Shown: piece after piece, positions 2-43,776 of the stretch
How the letters are laid out: each line of letters begins with the position of its first letter
How positions within the stretch are numbered: position 1 is the stretch's first letter
Source of the DNA: Clostridia bacterium
GTDB lineage: Bacteria; Bacillota; Clostridia; Acetivibrionales; DSM-27016
Assembly: GCA_026414765.1 (NCBI GenBank)
Contig: JAOAIJ010000046.1
Span: forward strand, 1 to 64,000
Reading direction: 5' to 3'
Length of the DNA stretch: 64,000 nucleotides
Made by a program: the position numbers and the translations under genes
The notes under the pieces: generated by a model
The model's database searches: none
Told to the model about the DNA's origin: nothing
What the model saw: only the letters and a program-made list of their open reading frames with translations

Positions 2-3000
2 GTTCCGTCACTGAATTCCGAGGTTCTAAATCCGAACATTGATTTTATCAATACCCCGTTTATAGTGCAGCAGACACTTACCGAATGGAAACGGCCGGTG
101 GTTGAGCTGAACGGCGAGGTCAGTGAATACCCGAGGATCGCCGGTATTTCATCTTTTGGAGCAGGAGGGGCAAATGCTCATGTGGTGATAGAGGAATATA
201 TACCAAAGGGCATGGAAGGGTATCAGATAAGAGTTGATGATAAAAACCCTGCGATAATCGTGTTGTCGGCTAAAAATGAAGAGAGGCTCAAAGAGCGGGC
301 GCGGCAGTTGCTCACTGTAATCGGGGAGCAGAGATATTCCGGTGCAGACCTTGCCGATGTGGCATATACTCTTCAGGTCGGGCGGGAAGCTATGGAAGAA
401 CGTCTGGCTGTGATGGTTGTATCAATTGATGAGCTTGTACAAAAGCTGAAGGATTTTATTGAAGGGAAAAATGATACGGAAGGCCTGTTCAGGGGGCAGG
501 CAAAAGGCCATAAGGATACTTTGACCGCTTTAACGGCAGATGAAGAAATGCAGGAAACAATAGAGAAATGGATTCAGCGCAGAAAGTATGGAAGGATGCT
601 AGAGCTTTGGGTCAGGGGGGCGGCATTGGACTGGAAAAAGCTGTACGGAGTCAGTAAGCCCCACCGTATCAGCCTGCCCACTTATCCGTTTGCCAGGGAG
701 CGGTACTGGATACCGGACAGTAAAACAAAACCTGCCGGCAGTACGACGGCAAACCTCTCCACTGCAGCCTTCATTCATCCGCTGCTGCATCGGAACACAT
801 CGGATTTATTTGAGCAGCGGTTCAGTTCAACCTTTACGGGAGAGGAGTTTTTCCTTTCAGATCATGTAATAAACGGGCAGAAGGTATTGCCAGGGGTAGC
901 TTATCTGGAAATGGCCCGGGCAGCAGTGGAACAGGCAGCGGGGAGTCTGATGGAAGGCAATATAGGGCTTAGGTTAAAGAACGTAGTTTGGACTCATCCC
1001 ATAACAGTGAAAGAGCAGCCGGTCCAGGTGCATACCGGACTTATTCCCGAAGACACCGGCGAGATAGCTTTTGAGATATACAGTGAGCCAGGTGTAGCCG
1101 GCTCGGAGCGTATGGTACATAGCACAGGGAAGGTAGTACTGAGAGCGGATGAAGAAGATCCGGTCCGGGACTTAGAGTCCGTGCAAGCCCAGTGTACCGG
1201 AAAAATCCTTTCCGGCAGCCAATTATATGAAGCGTTTAAGGAAGCGGGTATTGCCTATGGTTATGGATACCAGGGTATTCAGGAAGAGTACATCGGCCAG
1301 GGCCAGGCATTGGCCAAATTATCTTTGCCTTCTTCCGTTTTTGACACTCAAAATCAATTCATTCTGCATCCCAGCCTGATGGATTCAGCCTTACAGGCAT
1401 CAATAGGTTTAATGGTAGGCTCTGGAGAAGGTAAGGCAATGAATTTGAATATTGCCCTGCTCTTTGCTATACAGGAGCTTGAAATCCTCAGCAGTTGCAC
1501 CCCCACAATGTGGGCTTTGATTCGACTGAGCGAAGGCGGCAGATCAGATGGTAAAACGCAGAAATTTGATATTGATATATGTGATGAACAGGGGAAAATC
1601 TGTGTACGGATGAGGGGCGTTTCATCAAGAACACAGGAAGGAATGGGTCAAAACAGTGCTGTGCCGGACAAGGTTTATTCCGGGGCTTACAGTGAGGACT
1701 TAGCTGGAACCATAATGCTGGTTCCGGTATGGGATGTAGAGTCAATTGAGAAGAGTCAAATCTTTCCATACTTAACGGACCAGATTGTGGTTATAGGGGG
1801 GAATGAAGAAAATAGGAGCATTATAGGACAGTGTTATCCGAAAGCGTGCGTATTGGAGATTGCTCCAAAAGATACTATGGATGAAATAGCAAGAAAACTG
1901 GAAGTTTGCGGGTCTATTGACCATATTCTGTGGATAGCCCCTTATAATCCCTTAAAATCCTTAGATGATGATGCATTAATCGAAGGACAAAACCAGGGTG
2001 TTCTTCAAGTGTTCCGCATTATTAAAGCCCTGCTTAGTTTGGGCTATGCTGATAGAGATCTAGGCTGGAGCCTTATTACTACACAGTCCCTGTCAATCCA
2101 CAAAAATGATTTGGTAAATCCGGTTCATGCGGGTATTCAAGGATTGGTCGGTTCACTGGTGAAGGAATGCCAAAACTGGAAAATCCGGCTCATTGATCTG
2201 GAGGCCGGCTGTAATTGGCCGGTTGAAGATATTGTCACTATGCCCCCGGATCCACGGGGAGAGCCCTGGGTTTACCGGAGAAAGGAGTGGTACCGTCAAA
2301 AACTGGTTCCATTCCATTGCCCCTCTTTACTAGATCAGCAACTATACAAAACTGGCGGAGTGTATGTGGTGATTGGCGGCAGCGGCGGAATTGGAGAAGC
2401 TTGGAGTGAATATATGATACGTACCTGTAAAGCCCAGATTATCTGGGTCGGCCGTCGTGAAAAGGATAAAATAATCCAAGCTAAACTGGATAGGCTCGCC
2501 GCCTTGGGACCTGCTCCTCATTACATTGCTGCTGATGCTGCTGAAAAGGAGGCTCTTGAACAAGCCTATGAAGAGATTATAAAGAGGTATTCAAAGATTA
2601 ACGGGGTGGTTCATTCTGTTGTGGTATTTTCTGGACAGGTTCTGGCGGACATGGAAGAGGAACGGTTCCAGGCCGTACTCTCGTCCAAGGTTGATGTGAG
2701 TGTCCGCATAGCGCAGGTTTTTGGAAAGGAATCCTTGGATTTCGTAATGTTTTTCTCCTCCATCAATTCATATCTGAAAGCATATGGGCAAAGCAACTAT
2801 GCTTCAGGGTGTACCTTCAAGGATGCGTTTGCCCGCCAGCTCTCAAGAGAATGGCCTTGTGCCGTAAAAGTGATGAACTGGGGATATTGGGGCAGTGTCG
2901 GGGCTGCTGCCGGTTCTGACGATTTTCATATTTGGATGGAAAGGAAAGGCATAGGCTCTATTGAGCCAGTGGAAGCCATGGATGCGTTAAACGTACTACT

Positions 3001-17097: not shown

Positions 17098-20000
17098 ATG
17101 GCTGTTGAAATGGGACAAGAGGATTATTTATTATTACTAAAAAAGTCATTAAGCACAATTAAAAAATTAGATGCAGAATTAGAAATGCAAAGGAAAGAAA
17201 AAGAGCCGATTGCCATAATTGGCATGGGATTCCGTTTTCCGGGAGGGAGTCATGATCCTCAGACGTTCTGGGAGTTTTTAACGGAGGGAAGGGACGGAGT
17301 TATAGGGGTACCTAAGGATAGGTGGTGCATTGACGAGCTTAATGTTCCCGGGGTACATCTTAGGGAAGCCGGCTTTCTTCACGAGAATGTGGGGGAATTT
17401 GATGCTCACTTTTTCGGAATATCTCCACGTGAGGCTGTAGAAATGGACCCCCAACAGCGGCTGCTGCTGGAAGTGAGTTGGGAGGCGCTGGAACGGGCCG
17501 GTATTGCTCCAAGTAAGCTTCAAGGGACGAAAACAGGTGTTTTTATCGGTATTATAGGTTCGGATTATTCTACTTTGCCGCGTAAGGATATGAATCCATA
17601 TTTTCTTACAGGCTCACTACCGAATATTGCCTCCGGAAGGATTTCATACATTTTAGGAACCCATGGCCCGGCTATTTCTGTAGATACAGCCTGTTCTTCA
17701 TCATTGGTGGCTGTTCACCTTGCCTGCGAAAGCTTGCGAAGAGGTGAATCCACATTGGCTTTGGCAGGAGGAGTAAGCCTAATGCTGTCACCTGCTGCTT
17801 TTATATCACTCTGCAGTTTTAATGCTATTGCTGAGGACGGAAGGTGCAAGACCTTTGATGCCGGCGGAGATGGCTATGGGCGGGGTGAAGGCTGTGGAGC
17901 AGTAGTATTGAAAAGACTTTCAGATGCAATAAAGGATAAGGACCCGATTTTAGCGGTGATCAGGGGGACCGGCGTTAATCAGGACGGTCCCGGCAGTGGG
18001 TTGACAGTTCCTAATGGGACGGCTCAGAAAGAGTTAATCTTGAAAACACTTGAAGAATCTAACGTCTCACCTGAGGAAATCAGTTATTTTGAAGCCCATG
18101 GGACAGGAACTTCACTGGGAGACCCTATCGAAGTCCAGGCGTTAACCGAGGTATTCGGCAAAAAGACGGGAGGCCGGACAGAACCATTGATTATCGGATC
18201 GCTGAAAAGTAATATCGGACACCTGGAAGCAGCGGCCGGTATTGCGAGCCTGATCAAGATTATTTTATGTTTGCAGAATAAAGAGATCCCGCCTAATTTA
18301 AACTTAAAAACACTTAACCCGAGAATCCACCTGGAGAGAATTCCGGCAATTGTCCCCCAAAAAACCATTCCATGGGGAACGGCAGGAAAACCAAGGATGG
18401 CAGGGATCAGCTCATTTGGATTTAGTGGAACAAATGCTTACGCAATAGTTGCCGAACCGCCTAAGGATATGTCTATTAATAATGACTTGAAGCCTGCTTG
18501 TGAAAGGCCTTTGCATATCCTGGCACTCTCAGCCAAAAGCGAAAATGTTTTAATGCAATTGATAACTAAATATAAAAGCTATTTTGAAAACCCAAATAAT
18601 GAAAAATTGGAGAATATATGCTTTACAGCCAATACGGGGAGGACTCATTTTACCCGCCGGATTTCCTTTGCTGCTGAAAACCCGGAGCAGATGAAAAGTA
18701 AGCTTGCAGAGTATTTGCAAGGCAATCCGGAGTCCGGAATCAATGGAGTAAGGGGAAAAGAAAATGCTGATTCAAAACTTGTCTTTATATTTAACGGTAA
18801 AACAAATATAGAGATATGCAAATCCCTGTTTGATACGCAGCCGGTTTTCCGGAAAGCCTTGCTATCATGCAATGAAAGGCTGCAGCAGTTTGCAGATACA
18901 TCTTTCTTGGATAGTGTTCTGATCAATGATTTGAAACAGGATGATAGTATCCCAGGATATATGAAGGATGTAATCTCATTTTCTTTACAATACAGTCTGT
19001 TAAAACTATGGGAGAGCTGGGGTGTTAAGCCTAGTGCTGTTTTGGGAAGTGGAAATGGACAATTTGCTGCTGCTTGCGCAGCAGGAGTAATGAGTATGGA
19101 AACTGCTCTGTTATTCATTTTGGAAAATCAAGGTATTGCGTTACAAGCAGATGCTGAAAAAGTCTTAAACCAGTTTAAGATACGTATGATATCTGCCGCC
19201 GGAGAAGGCTTTATTGAAAAGCAAGAGGCCGTTTCAAGCCGTTATTGGGAAAGAGTCCTTAGTATTGAACCAAAGATCAGAAAAGGAATTGAATACCTTA
19301 TCCAGCAAGGGTATAAGCATTTTTTGGAGATAGGGCCGGTAGATGAGCCGGACTATCAGGGGGATGTTCTTATTAATTCCTCAATCTCATATTTTTCTTT
19401 CCCCTCTTGCGGGAATCCATGGAGGGCTTTAGTCAATATATTGGGAAGTCTTTACTGCTCGGGAGTGGATATAGACTGGTCGGGTTTTGATCAGGGCTAT
19501 GACAGGCATAAGGTGGTATTGCCGACATATCCGTTCCAAAGAAAGTATTTTTGGTGTGATGCCATTCCCTTTAATGAATATTTCAGGAAAATGACGGGGA
19601 TAGAAAGGGAAGAAAGTGCCGGCAGCAGCCTGGATGGCAGGATTATTAATTCTCCCGTTAAGGAAAAACAGATTGAATACAGCCTGAGCCTGGATGCGAT
19701 TCCGGATTTAAAGGATACACATGGAGTATTGCATGTAGGGTACTACTTTGAAATCCTGTACCGGGCGGTCAGGAAAATCTATAACAGATCTTTTGTATTG
19801 AAATCGATTGAATTTCTGAGTGCTTTGATTGTTCCTGAAAAGAGCACACTGAATATGTCGTTGATTTTGCTGGCTAAGGAACGAGGAGAAATAGAGTTTT
19901 CTTTTTACGGATGTAAGGAAAGCAATAACTGGAGCAAGCATACGCAAGGAGTGATCCTGATTGATGATACAAGTACGGCGTTACAGACTTATCGCGACGT

Positions 20001-21672
20001 TCGGGCAGACATTATAAACCAGTGTCAAGAGCAGTATTCCGGTACGGAATTCTATCGGAAGCTTCAAGAGAGAGGGATTCTTTTGGGCGAAAGTGTTCAA
20101 TGCATAGAAAATGTTTGGTGCAGAGAAGGAGAGGCATTGGCACGGTTCAAGCAATCACAAAAGCCGGATACTTCCAATGGATATGAAACCGGAGTCCACC
20201 CGGGTGTCTTTGATGCCTGCGCGCAGTTGTTTCATGCAGCTTTGCCTCAAAGTGCAGATAAAGGCATGAAATATATGGTTACCAGGTGGGAGGGTTTTAG
20301 CTTCAATCCTGGAGACGAAATGCGAGAATTGTGGTGCCATGCAGTTCTTCGAGACAGTCTGCAAGCACCGGACCTTTTAACTGGGACATTTCAATTGCTT
20401 GACCAGGACGGAAAACTGATTGCACAGATAAGCAACGGTCTTATGAAAGGAATAAGCAAGGAGCATGAGGATGCTTTTAAAAAGTATATGGAAAGCGAAG
20501 CGGCAAAAGGAACGGAAGGTGAATCGGAAACTCTGAATAATTTAAGATGCGTAACTTCTGATAAATGGGGAGAGATAATAACCGGCTATTTACAGCACTT
20601 ATTTGCCTCAATATTAAGAATGGAGGCATCTGAAATTGATATAAATGAATCGCTGATGGATTTAGGTATGGATTCGCTGGTGGGTGTTGAGGCCAAGCTA
20701 AAGATTGAAAAGGAATTCAGAATATTCTTGCCTCTGGAATTACTGATTCAGGGTCCGAGCATTCAGAAACTGGGGGAATCAATTATCCCCCTTGTTCCGG
20801 TAGAACCTGGAAGGAGTGACAGCTTAAAGGCTGACAGTATCCATAAGGAAAATAAAATAGATATTAGCCGCTGGATTGTTCATCGTAAGACGAACCCTTC
20901 AGCGAAGATCAAATTATTCTGTTTTCCATATGGGGGTGGCGGTGCCTCGATATATAGAAGATGGCAGACAAAACTGCCTGACCATATAGAAATCTGTCCT
21001 GTCCAGCTTCCCGGAAGGGAAAACCGGATTAAGGAAAAAGCATTTGTTGATATCGGTACGGCAGTTAAAGCTCTGAAGGAAATGATCTTACCTGAACTAG
21101 ACCGGCCTTATGCCTTTTATGGACATAGCGTGGGCGCTCTGGTTTCGTACCGGTTGGCTTATGAATTATGGAAAGAGGTTGATAACAAGCCGAAACATGT
21201 ATTTGCGGGAGGGTATTCATCGCCGGTTATTTTACCAAATCCCTTTCTTGCGGTTCAAAGAGAAAAATTCCAAAAGCTTGGCTATGAGGATATTCCCGCT
21301 CCGGAAATTCTTTCTTCAGCTACACCGGAACAAGCAAAAAAGATTCTGGAAATCACAGGAGGTATTCCTGGTCCGGAAACAGATATAAACGAAGAATTGA
21401 TAAAGGTCTTTTTACCGATAGGGCTTGCAGATTTACAGTTGGTAAATAGTTTTAGCTCAATCGGTGAAGCTGCTTTTGATGTTCCCATATCAGCGGTTCA
21501 CGGAAAAAAGGATATAAGGGTCAACGAACCGGAAATGCGCCAGTGGAAAAAATTGACCAAAGGTGCGTTTAAGCTTCATATCTTGCCTGGAGATCACCTT
21601 TTTCTCCATGAAGAACAGGACCAAAAACAATTATTGGAATTAATCTGTAAGCAACTAGAAAAATATGTTTAA
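17098..21672 (+). CDS. terminal PKS module: docking-KS-inactive AT-DH-like-ACP-thioesterase
   Basis: 1524 residues, starting 50 bp after the preceding PKS behind an AAGGGGG ribosome site. The N-terminus (residues 1-38) is a short coiled-coil docking segment. The KS follows with GMGFRFPGG, Cys199 in TACSSS, HGTGT and NIGH; these motifs resemble cis-AT PKSs rather than the KSs of the previous gene. Residues about 560-800 align by eye with a malonyl-AT (TQPVFRKAL, LWESWGVKPSAVLG, AACAAGVMS, FLEIGPV). The nucleophile elbow GHSxG is GSGNG (residues 650-654), so the catalytic Ser is missing and the domain is probably non-functional. A DH-like double hotdog follows (about 865-1120): VHPGVFDACAQ is present but the HxxxGxxxxP motif is not recognisable. 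Then come an ACP (GMDSL, near 1190) and an alpha/beta-hydrolase TE with GHSVG (Ser1344) and GDHLF, of the GrsT/RifR type II style. It should take the chain from the preceding PKS and release it. Confidence 0.94.
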   Translation: MAVEMGQEDYLLLLKKSLSTIKKLDAELEMQRKEKEPIAIIGMGFRFPGGSHDPQTFWEFLTEGRDGVIGVPKDRWCIDELNVPGVHLREAGFLHENVGEFDAHFFGISPREAVEMDPQQRLLLEVSWEALERAGIAPSKLQGTKTGVFIGIIGSDYSTLPRKDMNPYFLTGSLPNIASGRISYILGTHGPAISVDTACSSSLVAVHLACESLRRGESTLALAGGVSLMLSPAAFISLCSFNAIAEDGRCKTFDAGGDGYGRGEGCGAVVLKRLSDAIKDKDPILAVIRGTGVNQDGPGSGLTVPNGTAQKELILKTLEESNVSPEEISYFEAHGTGTSLGDPIEVQALTEVFGKKTGGRTEPLIIGSLKSNIGHLEAAAGIASLIKIILCLQNKEIPPNLNLKTLNPRIHLERIPAIVPQKTIPWGTAGKPRMAGISSFGFSGTNAYAIVAEPPKDMSINNDLKPACERPLHILALSAKSENVLMQLITKYKSYFENPNNEKLENICFTANTGRTHFTRRISFAAENPEQMKSKLAEYLQGNPESGINGVRGKENADSKLVFIFNGKTNIEICKSLFDTQPVFRKALLSCNERLQQFADTSFLDSVLINDLKQDDSIPGYMKDVISFSLQYSLLKLWESWGVKPSAVLGSGNGQFAAACAAGVMSMETALLFILENQGIALQADAEKVLNQFKIRMISAAGEGFIEKQEAVSSRYWERVLSIEPKIRKGIEYLIQQGYKHFLEIGPVDEPDYQGDVLINSSISYFSFPSCGNPWRALVNILGSLYCSGVDIDWSGFDQGYDRHKVVLPTYPFQRKYFWCDAIPFNEYFRKMTGIEREESAGSSLDGRIINSPVKEKQIEYSLSLDAIPDLKDTHGVLHVGYYFEILYRAVRKIYNRSFVLKSIEFLSALIVPEKSTLNMSLILLAKERGEIEFSFYGCKESNNWSKHTQGVILIDDTSTALQTYRDVRADIINQCQEQYSGTEFYRKLQERGILLGESVQCIENVWCREGEALARFKQSQKPDTSNGYETGVHPGVFDACAQLFHAALPQSADKGMKYMVTRWEGFSFNPGDEMRELWCHAVLRDSLQAPDLLTGTFQLLDQDGKLIAQISNGLMKGISKEHEDAFKKYMESEAAKGTEGESETLNNLRCVTSDKWGEIITGYLQHLFASILRMEASEIDINESLMDLGMDSLVGVEAKLKIEKEFRIFLPLELLIQGPSIQKLGESIIPLVPVEPGRSDSLKADSIHKENKIDISRWIVHRKTNPSAKIKLFCFPYGGGGASIYRRWQTKLPDHIEICPVQLPGRENRIKEKAFVDIGTAVKALKEMILPELDRPYAFYGHSVGALVSYRLAYELWKEVDNKPKHVFAGGYSSPVILPNPFLAVQREKFQKLGYEDIPAPEILSSATPEQAKKILEITGGIPGPETDINEELIKVFLPIGLADLQLVNSFSSIGEAAFDVPISAVHGKKDIRVNEPEMRQWKKLTKGAFKLHILPGDHLFLHEEQDQKQLLELICKQLEKYV

Positions 21673-38221: not shown

Positions 38222-38824
38222 TTAGTGGTCATGCCCTTCTTCAGCAGCTTTCGCATCTGCTTTAGTTTTATGAACTGTACCAAAGGGATGCTGAGGTGGT
38301 GCATAAATAGAATATAATTTCAGGGGCTTATTGCCTGTATTGATTAAGTTGTGCCATTTACCAGCAGGTATAATGAACGCATAGTCATCGCTGACATATG
38401 CCTGAAAATCCAACCTGTCTTTCGTATCACCCATTTTTACAAGTCCTTGACCTTCTTCAATACGTACAAATTGATCGAGATTGGGATGGATTTCCAAACC
38501 TATGTCTTCACCAACATTAATACTCATCAAGGTAAGCTGCAAATGGTTTCCTGTCCATAAGACAAGACGGAAGTTGTCGTTTTGCTTGGTGGCTTCCTCG
38601 ATATCAACTACAAACGGATTAGGCCCATAATCCTTTAATATAATTGGGGTACTTGCCTTGGCTTGATTCATATAAGGAAGATATTGATTAGGTAACTGGC
38701 TCCATAAATCCGGGTTACACATTGGGGTATTGGCAAAGTAAGGACACTGGTACATATTATATGCGTTATACATTGGAGTGTTAGCATTATTTGGGTATTG
38801 ATACATATTCGGGGCATTATACAT
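38222..38824 (-). CDS. cupin domain protein with Tyr/Asn/Pro-rich N-terminal repeats
   Basis: 200 residues from the ATG at 38824, chosen because AAAGGA lies nine bases upstream; an in-frame ATG at 38842 has no clear site. Residues 1-40 repeat the pattern NTPMYNAYNMYQCP / NTPMCNP, low-complexity and Tyr-rich as in spore coat proteins. The cupin part follows: LEIHPNLDQFVRIEEGQG and PAGKWHNLINTGNKPLKL hold the metal-binding His residues and the two cupin motifs. It ends HPFGTVHKTKADAKAAEEGHDH. Similar cupins are common in clostridia. A spore-surface location is inference from the N-terminus. Confidence 0.82.
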   Translation of the reverse strand: MYNAPNMYQYPNNANTPMYNAYNMYQCPYFANTPMCNPDLWSQLPNQYLPYMNQAKASTPIILKDYGPNPFVVDIEEATKQNDNFRLVLWTGNHLQLTLMSINVGEDIGLEIHPNLDQFVRIEEGQGLVKMGDTKDRLDFQAYVSDDYAFIIPAGKWHNLINTGNKPLKLYSIYAPPQHPFGTVHKTKADAKAAEEGHDH

Positions 38825-38842
38825 AGTGCTCGTTCCTTTCAT

Positions 38843-39385: not shown

Positions 39386-42300
39386 TCACTTACACAGGGT
39401 TATTGCGAATACATGCATATTTGGGCAATAGGGCAAAGTAATTTCCTGTAAATTATCATTGTCAGGAATAGAGTAGCATTGAGCAAACAGTTTGCCTAGT
39501 ATGGGTATGGTGTCTATACGATCCGGGCCGGTTTCCATTACGCTTCCGCTCCATACAATGGATTCATTAAAGAAGCCATTGTTAAGTGAATAATCTGTAA
39601 AATCCAGTGCCGATCTCTCAGTAAGCCCGCTTTCATATTCTAATAGCATAGTAGTAGGATGAGAAGTAAAATCACAACATCCTACTATAAAGATCTTTTT
39701 ATATCTGCCGGGGTTGTCTAACACGATCTTTTGTCCGAGGCAGAGTATGTTGTCAAAAGCTTCTGATTTGTATTCAGGCAACTTGTAACTAATATCATTA
39801 AACTTTAGAACCGCGCTGCTTATTATTTTTTCATCCGCAACCAGATAGGTATGTCTTCCATGGTCTTCTACAAAGCTGGCATCACGAGTATTTCCCAAAT
39901 CAGAAAATGCTCTGTTGTTCAAATAATCCTTCAAGTCAAGCAAATGGTTTTCCCTTATGTCCTTAGTCAACTCCTCACCATTAATTACTATGTTTTCAAA
40001 AACATAATCTTTATCGTATTCATATGTAGCTTGGAGCAGATTTTGTGCAAATTCTTCTTCAAGTACCGCAATCTCGAGGATTTTCTTTGCAGCTGCATAG
40101 GAGACTTCTTTCTTGAAAGCTTTATCTGAAGACAAACATGCTTTTATAATAAAGCCATATATTGAGTTCCATATAAAACCGATTCTATTAATATCGGATG
40201 CGTATTTTTCCAGTATTCCTATTTTGTTTTTCTTACCAAGATAGGCTAAGCTTTCACCGAAGTGAATCCTGTTGCGGTATAGCTGCTGCAACTGGACGAA
40301 GATGTGGGAGAAGAATACATCAGTGTCCATGAACTCCCTTATTTCCTGTTCTATATCATTACAGTTTTCCAGGGCTTTTGAGAAATTTATCATTTGTTCA
40401 AAAGTGTTGAATCCATTTACTTTTTCATACATGTATGAGATTCTCTCTCTTAATATATCCTGCCAACTACCTGTCAGGTGTGATGTGTCCTCATCCACTG
40501 ACATGGTCAGCATGTACTTATTAAAACCATTCAAAAAATGTTCCTTTGGCAAGAAATCCCCATAATTCATAGGAGATGAGTCAATGCAAAACAAATTGTC
40601 ATTACTGTCAATACCGTTTATTGTGCAGAAATGTTGACCGTGATACTGCTGATAAGCTACCTGAAACCATGGACACCAGAAAATATCAAGATTTATGGCA
40701 ACTGGTCTGCCTTCACAAATTTCATTTCTGATTAATTTCAGAGCTTCTTTTGCGTCTTTGCAATTTTGCTCGGTCAGCTTTATTCCATGATATTTATGTA
40801 ACAAATCTATTCTTGTGCTTAAATCAGATTTTGGGCTGAGGCACTTACCCAACAGATCCCCTTTAGTTTCATCAAATTCAAAGTCCCAATCCTTAAGGTA
40901 AAGCATCTGGTGATCCCTTCCAAGCCATGAAGCAAGGGAGGCGATCAAATCTTCATAGCAATTCCTTGTATCTTCATGTAAGGGTATTATGTCCTCAAGA
41001 ATTATTTTATCTTTATTTCCGCTTTTAATATTTGCATTTTGTTCGATATACTTACTGAGATCACAAACTGTCGGGTAGGCATACATTTCACTCAGGAATA
41101 ATTTGAAATCAAATTCCTTTTCTATTTCCATAATCAGCATATGAGTAGCAACGGAATTTCCACCTAATTCAAAAAAGTTATCATTTACGCTTAATTTGCC
41201 TATTCTAAGAACCTTCTTGAATAAGTTTAGTATTTTTTTCTCAAATATATTAGCTGGCTCATCACTGTCTGATGCGGTTGGAGACTTTTCCTCAAGATTT
41301 TGAATATCTATAACAGTATCTTTGAATTCTCCGTTTTGATATCTTGACGCTAGACTGGAACGTTTCAGTTTTCCGCTTACTGTTTTTGGAATGCTGCTGA
41401 TAGGGACTATTTTTTGCACACCTAGTGAAGTTCTTTTGTTTATATGTCTGATAATCATGCTTGCAGTCAGATTTGTATCGGCAATATCTTCTCCTGCAGC
41501 CATAAATACTATGATTTCATCAGTATGCCTGCTGCTGTCATATACTCCCACTACTGCGATATCGCCGGTGCTGATAGTGTCCAGTTCAGTTGCCACTGCT
41601 TCGATATCATGAGGGTAGTAGTTTTTGCCGTTCAGTAAAATAATATCTTTGTGTCTGCCGGTTATAATAAGGCGGTTGTTTTTGATAAAACCCAGATCTC
41701 CTGTTCTCAGCCAGCCGTCCGGTGTAAAAACGCTCCGTGTCCGTTCTTCGTCATTGTAATACCCTAAAGAAAGCTGCCTTCCTGATAATTGTATATGTCC
41801 GATGTAACCTTCATCAAGCTCCTTGTCATTGTCATCGCAGATACGCATTTTACAGGAACTCAACGGATATCCTACATCAACAAAGGATACGCAATTGCTT
41901 TTGTCTTCCGGTATGTCATCGCTTATTTTATTTCCTGTAGTTGTCGTGTTTCTGTCCAGAGTGTATTGTATGATTTCAGAGCCGTATGGAGAAAAGGAAA
42001 CAGCTGCACAAGCTTCCGCTATACCGTAGGAGGGAACGATAACAGTGTCTTTTATCTTGTGTACTGCCAGTATGCTCATGAATCTCTTACATAATTCATA
42101 GGAGATTGGTTCCGCACCGTTTATTATAATTCTTATACTGGACAGGTCACATTCCTTTAATGCATCCTCGCTATAATATGATAATAGATGGCTGAAGCCG
42201 AAATTAGGGCATCCTGTCATAGTTATCCGGTATTCAGAAGCTTTTTTCATCCACAAGAGCGGATTTTGAATGAATAACTGGGTTGGCATTACGTACTGGT

Positions 42301-42988
42301 TTATTCCGTTTATTACACCATGTATATTAAAAAATATCAAGCCCATGTTATGAGTAAGGGGAGACCAGTACAGGAAAGAATCTTTTTCCGTTATATCCAA
42401 TGCTGATGTAGATGCTCTCAAATTTGTGAGTATTACTTCATGGGAGTTAATTACACCCTTAGGTTCTCCTGTAGAGCCGGACGAGAATTGAATAAGGGCT
42501 ATATCATCTGGAAGAGCCTTTTCGATTTTTCCAGGCTCATTTGCTGATAAAGCTTCTTCCAGTACTAAAACCGGAAAGTCAGGGCAGATATCGTTATCAC
42601 GAGTATTTTTCTCTTTTATGTAATAGCTAATGTGTTCAGAGGCTTGCCTGGTTGAAATTAGACACGGATCTTTAAGCACTTTCCAAATATTAAATGTTCT
42701 TGAATTCACATCCTCTATATTTCCACCGGATACAGGCACCGGAATAATACCACCCAGTATACATGCCCAAAATATATAGACAAAACTTTGATTGTCGTCT
42801 ATACGTATAACCATCTCCTGTTTTGGTTTTACTCCGCTTAGCTGTAAGTAATGTAGAACTTTGAGGGATTTTTCATACAATTTGCTGTAGGGAATATATA
42901 TAGTTTTTTCAGCATCCTCAATAAAATACAACCCTTTTTCATTGGTTTTCTTAAGACTTTCAAGATACTCAGATAGGGTAAAAAACAT
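39386..42988 (-). CDS. adenylation - carrier protein - BtrH/C39-like - beta-domain fusion
   Basis: 1200 residues; start behind GGAGG. Residues 1-560 are an acyl/aminoacyl-AMP ligase (FSSGSTGEPKG near 169, PSYGIAEACA, GWLRTGDLGF, GKNYYPHDIE). A carrier domain follows with FFELGGNSVATHM, Ser612 as phosphopantetheine site. Residues about 665-830 look like a BtrH N-terminal / papain-like fold: Cys677 in NCYEDL, His786 in YHGQHFCTINGID and Asp803 in CIDSS could form a triad. A helical region (840-1010) and a Cys-containing beta-rich C-terminus complete the protein. BtrH-type domains move acyl groups from carrier proteins to amines, so activation, loading and amide transfer in one chain is a reasonable model. 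No condensation, TE or reductase domain is present. Monocistronic; the substrate is unknown. Confidence 0.8.
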   Translation of the reverse strand: MFFTLSEYLESLKKTNEKGLYFIEDAEKTIYIPYSKLYEKSLKVLHYLQLSGVKPKQEMVIRIDDNQSFVYIFWACILGGIIPVPVSGGNIEDVNSRTFNIWKVLKDPCLISTRQASEHISYYIKEKNTRDNDICPDFPVLVLEEALSANEPGKIEKALPDDIALIQFSSGSTGEPKGVINSHEVILTNLRASTSALDITEKDSFLYWSPLTHNMGLIFFNIHGVINGINQYVMPTQLFIQNPLLWMKKASEYRITMTGCPNFGFSHLLSYYSEDALKECDLSSIRIIINGAEPISYELCKRFMSILAVHKIKDTVIVPSYGIAEACAAVSFSPYGSEIIQYTLDRNTTTTGNKISDDIPEDKSNCVSFVDVGYPLSSCKMRICDDNDKELDEGYIGHIQLSGRQLSLGYYNDEERTRSVFTPDGWLRTGDLGFIKNNRLIITGRHKDIILLNGKNYYPHDIEAVATELDTISTGDIAVVGVYDSSRHTDEIIVFMAAGEDIADTNLTASMIIRHINKRTSLGVQKIVPISSIPKTVSGKLKRSSLASRYQNGEFKDTVIDIQNLEEKSPTASDSDEPANIFEKKILNLFKKVLRIGKLSVNDNFFELGGNSVATHMLIMEIEKEFDFKLFLSEMYAYPTVCDLSKYIEQNANIKSGNKDKIILEDIIPLHEDTRNCYEDLIASLASWLGRDHQMLYLKDWDFEFDETKGDLLGKCLSPKSDLSTRIDLLHKYHGIKLTEQNCKDAKEALKLIRNEICEGRPVAINLDIFWCPWFQVAYQQYHGQHFCTINGIDSNDNLFCIDSSPMNYGDFLPKEHFLNGFNKYMLTMSVDEDTSHLTGSWQDILRERISYMYEKVNGFNTFEQMINFSKALENCNDIEQEIREFMDTDVFFSHIFVQLQQLYRNRIHFGESLAYLGKKNKIGILEKYASDINRIGFIWNSIYGFIIKACLSSDKAFKKEVSYAAAKKILEIAVLEEEFAQNLLQATYEYDKDYVFENIVINGEELTKDIRENHLLDLKDYLNNRAFSDLGNTRDASFVEDHGRHTYLVADEKIISSAVLKFNDISYKLPEYKSEAFDNILCLGQKIVLDNPGRYKKIFIVGCCDFTSHPTTMLLEYESGLTERSALDFTDYSLNNGFFNESIVWSGSVMETGPDRIDTIPILGKLFAQCYSIPDNDNLQEITLPYCPNMHVFAITLCK

Positions 42989-43260
42989 TACTTAATACAC
43001 CTCCGTAAATTTGGATAATTTTACTGGCTTTAAGCCGGTAGTACAGATATGACTTGATAGATTGAAAAAAATGTCATATTGGAATGGTATCATCTTGTAT
43101 ATCCCATGTCAATAATTTACAGAATATAAAATATATGTTTACTATAGAGGCTTTTGATGTTGAGTAATGTAAATGTAGAAAGGGATAAAAGAAATACTAT
43201 TCTATTGATAATTGTAGAAATATATTATAAAATTACCATATGTTACCTGGGAGGTGTATG

Positions 43261-43776
43261 ATGATTATTGTTGCAATACTATCAATCGCGTTTGTCTTAA
43301 GACTTTTGACGCTTATTTTTTCTATAAAAAATGAAAGAAGGCTTAAAAATGAGGGGGCAATAGAATATGGAAAAAAAAACAGTACAGTTATGGCTGTATT
43401 GCATACGGTAATTTATTTGGGGACAATTACATATTCTGCCCTGAATAAACAGCAGTTTGATACCGTATCTTTTGTCGGTTTGCTTATATGGCTGTTCTCA
43501 TTCATAATGCTGATACTCGTAATCTATCAACTCAGAGAGGTATGGACTGTAAAACTTCTTATCGCAAAAAAACATAAAATTAACAAAAGCTTCTTCTTTA
43601 AGTATATAAGGCATCCGAATTACTTTTTGAATATTATCCCTGAGTTGATTTCCATAACCCTCATCAGTAAATTTTACATGCTATTTATTGTCGTATTTCC
43701 TGTATATCTAATTACCTTGGTTTTAAGGATAACCGAAGAAGAACGGGTGATGAAGCAAAATTTTGCAGAATTTTAG
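43261..43776 (+). CDS. isoprenylcysteine carboxyl methyltransferase-like membrane protein
   Basis: About 171 residues; ATG 43261 chosen because GGAGG lies six bases upstream (in-frame ATGs at 43240 and 43258 are less likely). Four to five hydrophobic helices. The C-terminal motif FFFKYIRHPNYFLNIIPELI and the end EEERVMKQNFAEF match the ICMT/PEMT membrane methyltransferase fold, which uses SAM. It is divergent from the adenylation fusion gene and might modify its product, but that link is only position. Confidence 0.78.
   Translation: MIIVAILSIAFVLRLLTLIFSIKNERRLKNEGAIEYGKKNSTVMAVLHTVIYLGTITYSALNKQQFDTVSFVGLLIWLFSFIMLILVIYQLREVWTVKLLIAKKHKINKSFFFKYIRHPNYFLNIIPELISITLISKFYMLFIVVFPVYLITLVLRITEEERVMKQNFAEF

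Follow-up and report, generated by a model that had tools for sequence, protein, structure and literature searches.

Can a single protein of 1,200 residues activate an acid, hold it on a carrier and release it as an amide? The question is raised by a gene in a 64,000-nucleotide stretch of a Clostridia bacterium genome (contig JAOAIJ010000046.1; hereafter the window). An earlier note on the sequence had described its product as one chain with an adenylation domain, a carrier with Ser612, a cysteine-peptidase-like transferase with Cys677, His786 and Asp803, and a beta-rich C-terminus. Such parts are usually found on separate proteins, or make up the final domain of the large assembly lines that produce antibiotics. 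We think that the protein is probably a self-contained acyl-amide synthase with a ping-pong mechanism like that of CcbD, and put the probability of this at about 0.62. If it is true, activation, tethering and amide release could be both studied and reused from one protein of this size, with neither a Condensation domain nor a thioesterase.

Domain layout and ligase type

The reading frame is uninterrupted over 1200 codons with zero internal stops (Table 1). Pfam finds AMP-binding at residues 31-411 (4e-41), PP-binding at residues 585-648 (8.6e-12) and BtrH_N at residues 731-800 (9.6e-08), all above the curated cut-offs, and together with the intact frame and the scripted numbering this bears out the one-chain description. 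Condensation, thioesterase and reductase domains had been reported as missing, and Pfam indeed finds none in the chain; an alpha/beta-hydrolase thioesterase of the NRPS/PKS type has no Pfam match either, and a papain-like fold stands in its place.

Table 1. Coordinates of the gene, its parts and its neighbours in the window.
Feature	Residues	Position	Strand	Basis or remark
Whole gene, FAAL-ACP-BtrH-helical-beta (1200 aa)		39386..42988	minus	ORF reading and Pfam
Ribosome-binding sequence GGAGGTG		42998..43004 (complement)	minus	9 nt 5' of ATG, from sequence
AMP ligase, predicted FAAL type	1-556	41321..42988	minus	Pfam, NCBIfam, PDB relatives, motifs
Ligase P-loop SSGSTGEPKG	169-178			intact, script-checked
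Ligase motif SGK	538-540			intact, script-checked
Carrier domain (ACP), GGNS motif	585-648	41045..41236	minus	Pfam and motif
Phosphopantetheine serine	Ser612	41153-41155	minus	GGNS motif, numbering script-checked
Papain-like BtrH/CtaG-type domain	~661-835	40484..41008	minus	Pfam, alignment, AF2 model
Triad cysteine	Cys677	40958-40960	minus	numbering script-checked
Triad histidine	His786	40631-40633	minus	numbering script-checked
Triad aspartate	Asp803	40580-40582	minus	numbering script-checked
Helical bundle, second half of CtaG/CcbD/AziU3-like unit	842-990	40019..40465	minus	AF2 model
Beta-sandwich domain, AziU2/Azi28 homologue	1009-1200	39389..39964	minus	profile and structure match
Cupin		38222-38842		near-core gene of the order
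ICMT-like gene		43240-43776		divergent from target, 251 bp between start codons

The adenylation domain of the earlier description is an AMP ligase, but judged by its sequence it is of the fatty acyl-AMP-ligase (FAAL) type and not of the amino-acid type. Against NCBIfam it scores 314 bits with the FAAL model, short of the curated cut-off of 600 bits, and 120 bits with the amino-acid adenylation model, also below that model's own cut-off. The closest PDB structures are 6ulw/6ulx and McyG, followed by FAALs (3pbk, 3kxw, FadD32). When aligned with adenylation domains of the same and related genomes, the ligase has HNMG where most amino-acid domains have FD, and sequence alignment with other adenylation domains also places an insertion of ~25 residues after the YGIAE motif, in a part outside the AF2 model, which covers residues 661-1200. 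An amino-acid adenylation domain was rejected on the two model scores and on the replacement of FD. The ligase most likely takes an acid that carries no alpha-amino group, and the top PDB relatives, McyG and 6ulw, which we take to be a keto-acid module, suggest that keto or aryl acids could be used as well.

The gene was also said to stand alone, and so it does: the ICMT-like gene is divergent, the cupin is a near-core gene that 42 of the order's 58 genomes carry, and no partner that could form an operon with the target was seen at the locus. A functional operon with the cupin was rejected on this near-core distribution and on its adjacency to a BtrH-beta gene, seen only in the target genome and in Anaerobacterium chartisolvens. 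The shared adjacency hints at an old common locus; the BtrH units of the two genomes are not sisters in the tree. Membership in the PKS cluster of the window was likewise discarded, as that line has a thioesterase of its own and lies ~15 kb away.

Fold of residues 661-1200 and solved relatives

The AF2 model of this part was built from a ten-sequence alignment (mean pLDDT 80.5, pTM 0.60) and has a papain-like fold with an attached helical bundle, as in the BtrH/CtaG/CcbD acyl transferases. Residues 668-988 superpose on CtaG with Z 20.3 (282 residues aligned, 4.4 Å; Foldseek / VIA-align 2) and on CcbD with Z 19.9, the CtaG and CcbD matches spanning 280-300 residues, and they match AziU3 with a Foldseek E of 5e-10. 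Residues 1009-1200 superpose on AziU2 with Z about 24.2-25 (182 aligned, 1.9 Å), and the same domain matches the carbohydrate-binding module CBM29 with Z 9. Sequence profiles, which are independent of the model, give E 3e-18 for AziU2/Azi28 and a weak E of 0.014 for AziU3; when AziU3 is aligned by HMM, the region of the His and the Asp is included and the Cys segment falls outside. From the profile and structure matches to AziU3 and AziU2, residues 661-1200 correspond to AziU3 and AziU2 joined in one chain, in which the catalytic Cys has been kept. AziU3 itself (7wuw_C / 8gs1_B) matches the CtaG/BtrH-type model with the Foldseek E given above; its His and Asp regions align, and its Cys segment does not.

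The cysteine-peptidase-type fold guessed from the letters was thus found by AF2 and Foldseek, with the triad residues present in the sequence, whereas an undescribed fold for residues 660-1200 was ruled out by the matches to CtaG, CcbD, AziU3 and AziU2. In the sequence alignment Cys677 and Asp803 are invariant in 14 homologues, and His786 is conserved in most and missing from two, so that some members of the family may not be acyl transferases. As to the beta-rich C-terminus, there is indeed a beta-sandwich, but the last 330 residues also include the helical bundle, which belongs to the BtrH unit.

CtaG, of closthioamide in Ruminiclostridium cellulolyticum, shares the fold and a proposed carrier-dependent amide formation, and the residues mutated in its PDB entries (C11, H128, D144) agree with a Cys-His-Asp triad like that of the target; unlike the target it is a stand-alone protein, with no ligase, carrier or beta domain. 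It has been proposed to move hydroxybenzoate from its carrier onto the amine of beta-alanine held by a second carrier (PMC6772006). The lincosamide condensing enzymes CcbD/LmbD are also stand-alone and have no beta domain, their triad is Cys-His-Glu, and their adenylation domain and carrier sit on separate proteins. For CcbD the ping-pong course has been described: the carrier-bound acyl group, which may be a fatty one, moves to the catalytic Cys and is then attacked by the amine (PMC12945683). BtrH, the butirosin acyltransferase, is related through the Pfam match above, takes a carrier-bound donor and an amine acceptor (PMC10318531), and differs in being stand-alone and in having an aminoglycoside as acceptor.

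Only one solved system was found to match both halves of the target, the azinomycin aziridine synthase AziU3/AziU2, with AziU3 corresponding to residues 661-990 and AziU2 to residues 1009-1200. It consists of two chains, has neither ligase nor ACP, and has another chemistry, the formation of an aziridine by displacement of sulfate (PMC12559475; PMC9570651); its complex has been called a novel fold (PMC11168924). The target would join AziU3/U2, CtaG and CcbD under one architecture. In its logic it also resembles the fatty acid amide system Oaa of Coprococcus eutactus, with acid activation, ACP and an amide with a small amine (PMC13142362), but Oaa is made up of three separate proteins and forms the amide by a Condensation domain, which the target chain does not have.

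Relatives and position in assembly lines

The genomes searched, with a protein or an alignment as query, came in overlapping sets: 58 from the order, 391 from the class and 398 from the phylum. A full-length BtrH-alpha-beta unit fused behind a carrier was found in these genomes only in the target and in an NRPS of 3709 aa encoded by a Clostridia MAG (L083); the C-terminal end of this NRPS is the nearest relative of the target unit (34% identity). The two units are sisters in the tree, with a support of 100/97 from a bootstrap that is not fully settled. Stand-alone units of ~530 aa are carried by many Ruminiclostridium genomes, by Anaerobacterium, by a Spirochaetales MAG and by others. With the whole 1200-aa protein as query, the search of genome contigs gave no relative, and with the alignment it gave nine loci; a tblastn search of plasmids returned no match to the target.

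A survey of the architecture, which had been suggested together with the claim that the layout is unusual, found the exact FAAL-ACP-BtrH-AziU2-like order once, with no second case in the genomes searched. What is unusual is the FAAL-type ligase together with the AziU2-like beta domain, whereas a ligase, a carrier and a BtrH domain on one chain recur in two related Clostridia genomes (L112, 971 aa; L113, 981 aa). These two A-T-BtrH chains differ from the target in having amino-acid type adenylation domains, and no AziU2-like beta domain was detected in either. A split version occurs in a third related genome (L078), where an operon has in succession genes for a PPTase, for an A-T protein and, directly after the latter, for a BtrH-beta protein, and the target fits this series as its FAAL version. 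The fold and the reaction type were already known, and new among the genomes searched is their combination with a FAAL, an ACP and an AziU2-like domain in one chain.

The beta domain has a distribution of its own. The phylum search found, in distant genomes, long ORFs and other proteins that have an AziU2-like domain and no detected BtrH part (L102, L103, L104, L105, L106, L108). A second clade of BtrH units is formed by L017:9474-11096 and its relatives L012, L013, L015 and L016. The C-terminal part of L017 has a weak match to DUF1349/GH43_C2 (concanavalin-like) in place of AziU2, and a beta domain may therefore have joined BtrH more than once.

The position after the last carrier is usually occupied by a thioesterase. 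In 18 of 19 multidomain chains (NRPS, PKS and compact A-T-BtrH), which were chosen among the BtrH_N matches by ORF length and not by domain order, the BtrH-fold domain lies C-terminal to the last carrier. The target shares this order, as far as domain order goes, with 17 other chains. In its own genome BtrH ends an A-T-C-A-T NRPS (L012), a C-A-T NRPS (L013) and a KS-DH-KR-ACP PKS (L009), and in related genomes it comes after the final carrier detected in L083, L080, L109, L111, L112, L113, L114 (two chains), L115, L116, L117, L119, L121 and L122, the BtrH match being weak in L080 and L109 and ~500 residues separating carrier and BtrH in L122. The sole exception is L079, with BtrH at the N-terminus; the count leaves out weak BtrH_N matches missed by the custom profile (L110, the large ORF of L118, and L120). 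This suggests that BtrH/CtaG-type domains are release domains ending NRPS/PKS lines in Ruminiclostridium-like Clostridia. If so, predictions of their products would shift to an amide with an added amine, and not an acid or a lactone. A literature search, which took in only a minority of the subscription journals, found nothing on BtrH-fold domains that end assembly lines or are fused to a FAAL.

The target genome (G000) has 18 BtrH_N matches, several of them at the ends of the NRPS and PKS proteins just named, and its BtrH-containing clusters are unusually numerous. It also encodes a BtrH protein that stands alone and bears a TubC docking domain at its N-terminus (L010:1924-3114, minus strand; 6e-16), which suggests docking onto an assembly line. 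At L015:9042-13466 a BtrH protein, an AMP ligase and a radical SAM protein are consecutive, possibly an uncharacterised cluster.

The proposed reaction and its rivals

The fold, shared with CtaG, CcbD and AziU3, and the BtrH family model strongly support a carrier-dependent amide synthase of the papain fold. An enzyme class not described before, as had been suggested, it is not, since CcbD is characterised and CtaG proposed as an amide former with the same fold. By analogy with these two the target would make N-acyl amides. The FAAL-type domain would convert a fatty, keto or aryl acid, lacking an alpha-amino group, to the acyl-adenylate and load it onto the chain's own phosphopantetheine arm at Ser612, from where the acyl group would move to Cys677 as an acyl-enzyme thioester. 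With His786 as the base and Asp803 as the orienting residue, an amine would then attack the thioester and give the N-acyl product. The acceptor side may be shaped by the helical bundle together with the AziU2-like domain; that the beta domain is an acceptor platform is our guess, from AziU2 and from the amino sugars that BtrH and CcbD take as acceptors. Taken further, this AziU2-like, carbohydrate-binding-module-like domain could hold a sugar-like or polyhydroxylated amine, the product could be a fatty or aryl acid joined to an amino sugar, and the BtrH fold could be a widespread, amine-accepting alternative to the thioesterase for release in anaerobic Clostridia, a tentative idea which we find rather doubtful. 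No genes for producing an amine were recognised beside the target gene.

Against the amide reading stands AziU3/U2: it has the fold of both halves, and yet its product is an aziridine. It is highly improbable, though, that the acid on the carrier undergoes intramolecular substitution or cyclisation by the fused unit, however well both halves match the complex by the Z and E values above, because the catalytic Cys is strictly conserved in the target's family, the AziU3 alignment takes in only the His and Asp, and the AziU3/U2 substrate has a sulfate leaving group, with no sulfotransferase noticed near the target. Papain folds are frequently hydrolases, and in assembly lines the BtrH domain occupies the place of a thioesterase, which would fit release or editing of the acyl-ACP to the free acid. 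For a FAAL to activate an acid only to have it hydrolysed again would however be futile in a one-module chain, and both CcbD and, by proposal, CtaG transfer to amines, so we regard hydrolysis as very unlikely.

That the BtrH domain instead hands the acyl group, as a starter, to an aminoacyl carrier that belongs to a different assembly line, giving a carrier-bound amide, is unlikely. CtaG is proposed to work between two carriers, carrier-based clusters are many in the genome, and the window has a large PKS/NRPS at 65-24683. That PKS, however, already has a terminal thioesterase and is encoded ~15 kb away on the other strand, with unrelated genes in between, and the closest homologue of the target unit ends an NRPS, in the position of release. 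It is established chemistry that thioester acyl-enzymes are open to attack by any nucleophile, and a hydroxyl or thiol acceptor could give an ester or thioester by the same route; we think this quite improbable, as CcbD, CtaG and BtrH, with known or proposed chemistry, all form amides. An acyl-amide synthase is the reading that we prefer.

The PKS/NRPS cluster of the window (65-26186) contains an HMG-CoA-synthase, two enoyl-CoA hydratases and a decarboxylase-like ketosynthase, a beta-branching cassette, and the thioesterase lies at the end of its protein at 17098-21672.
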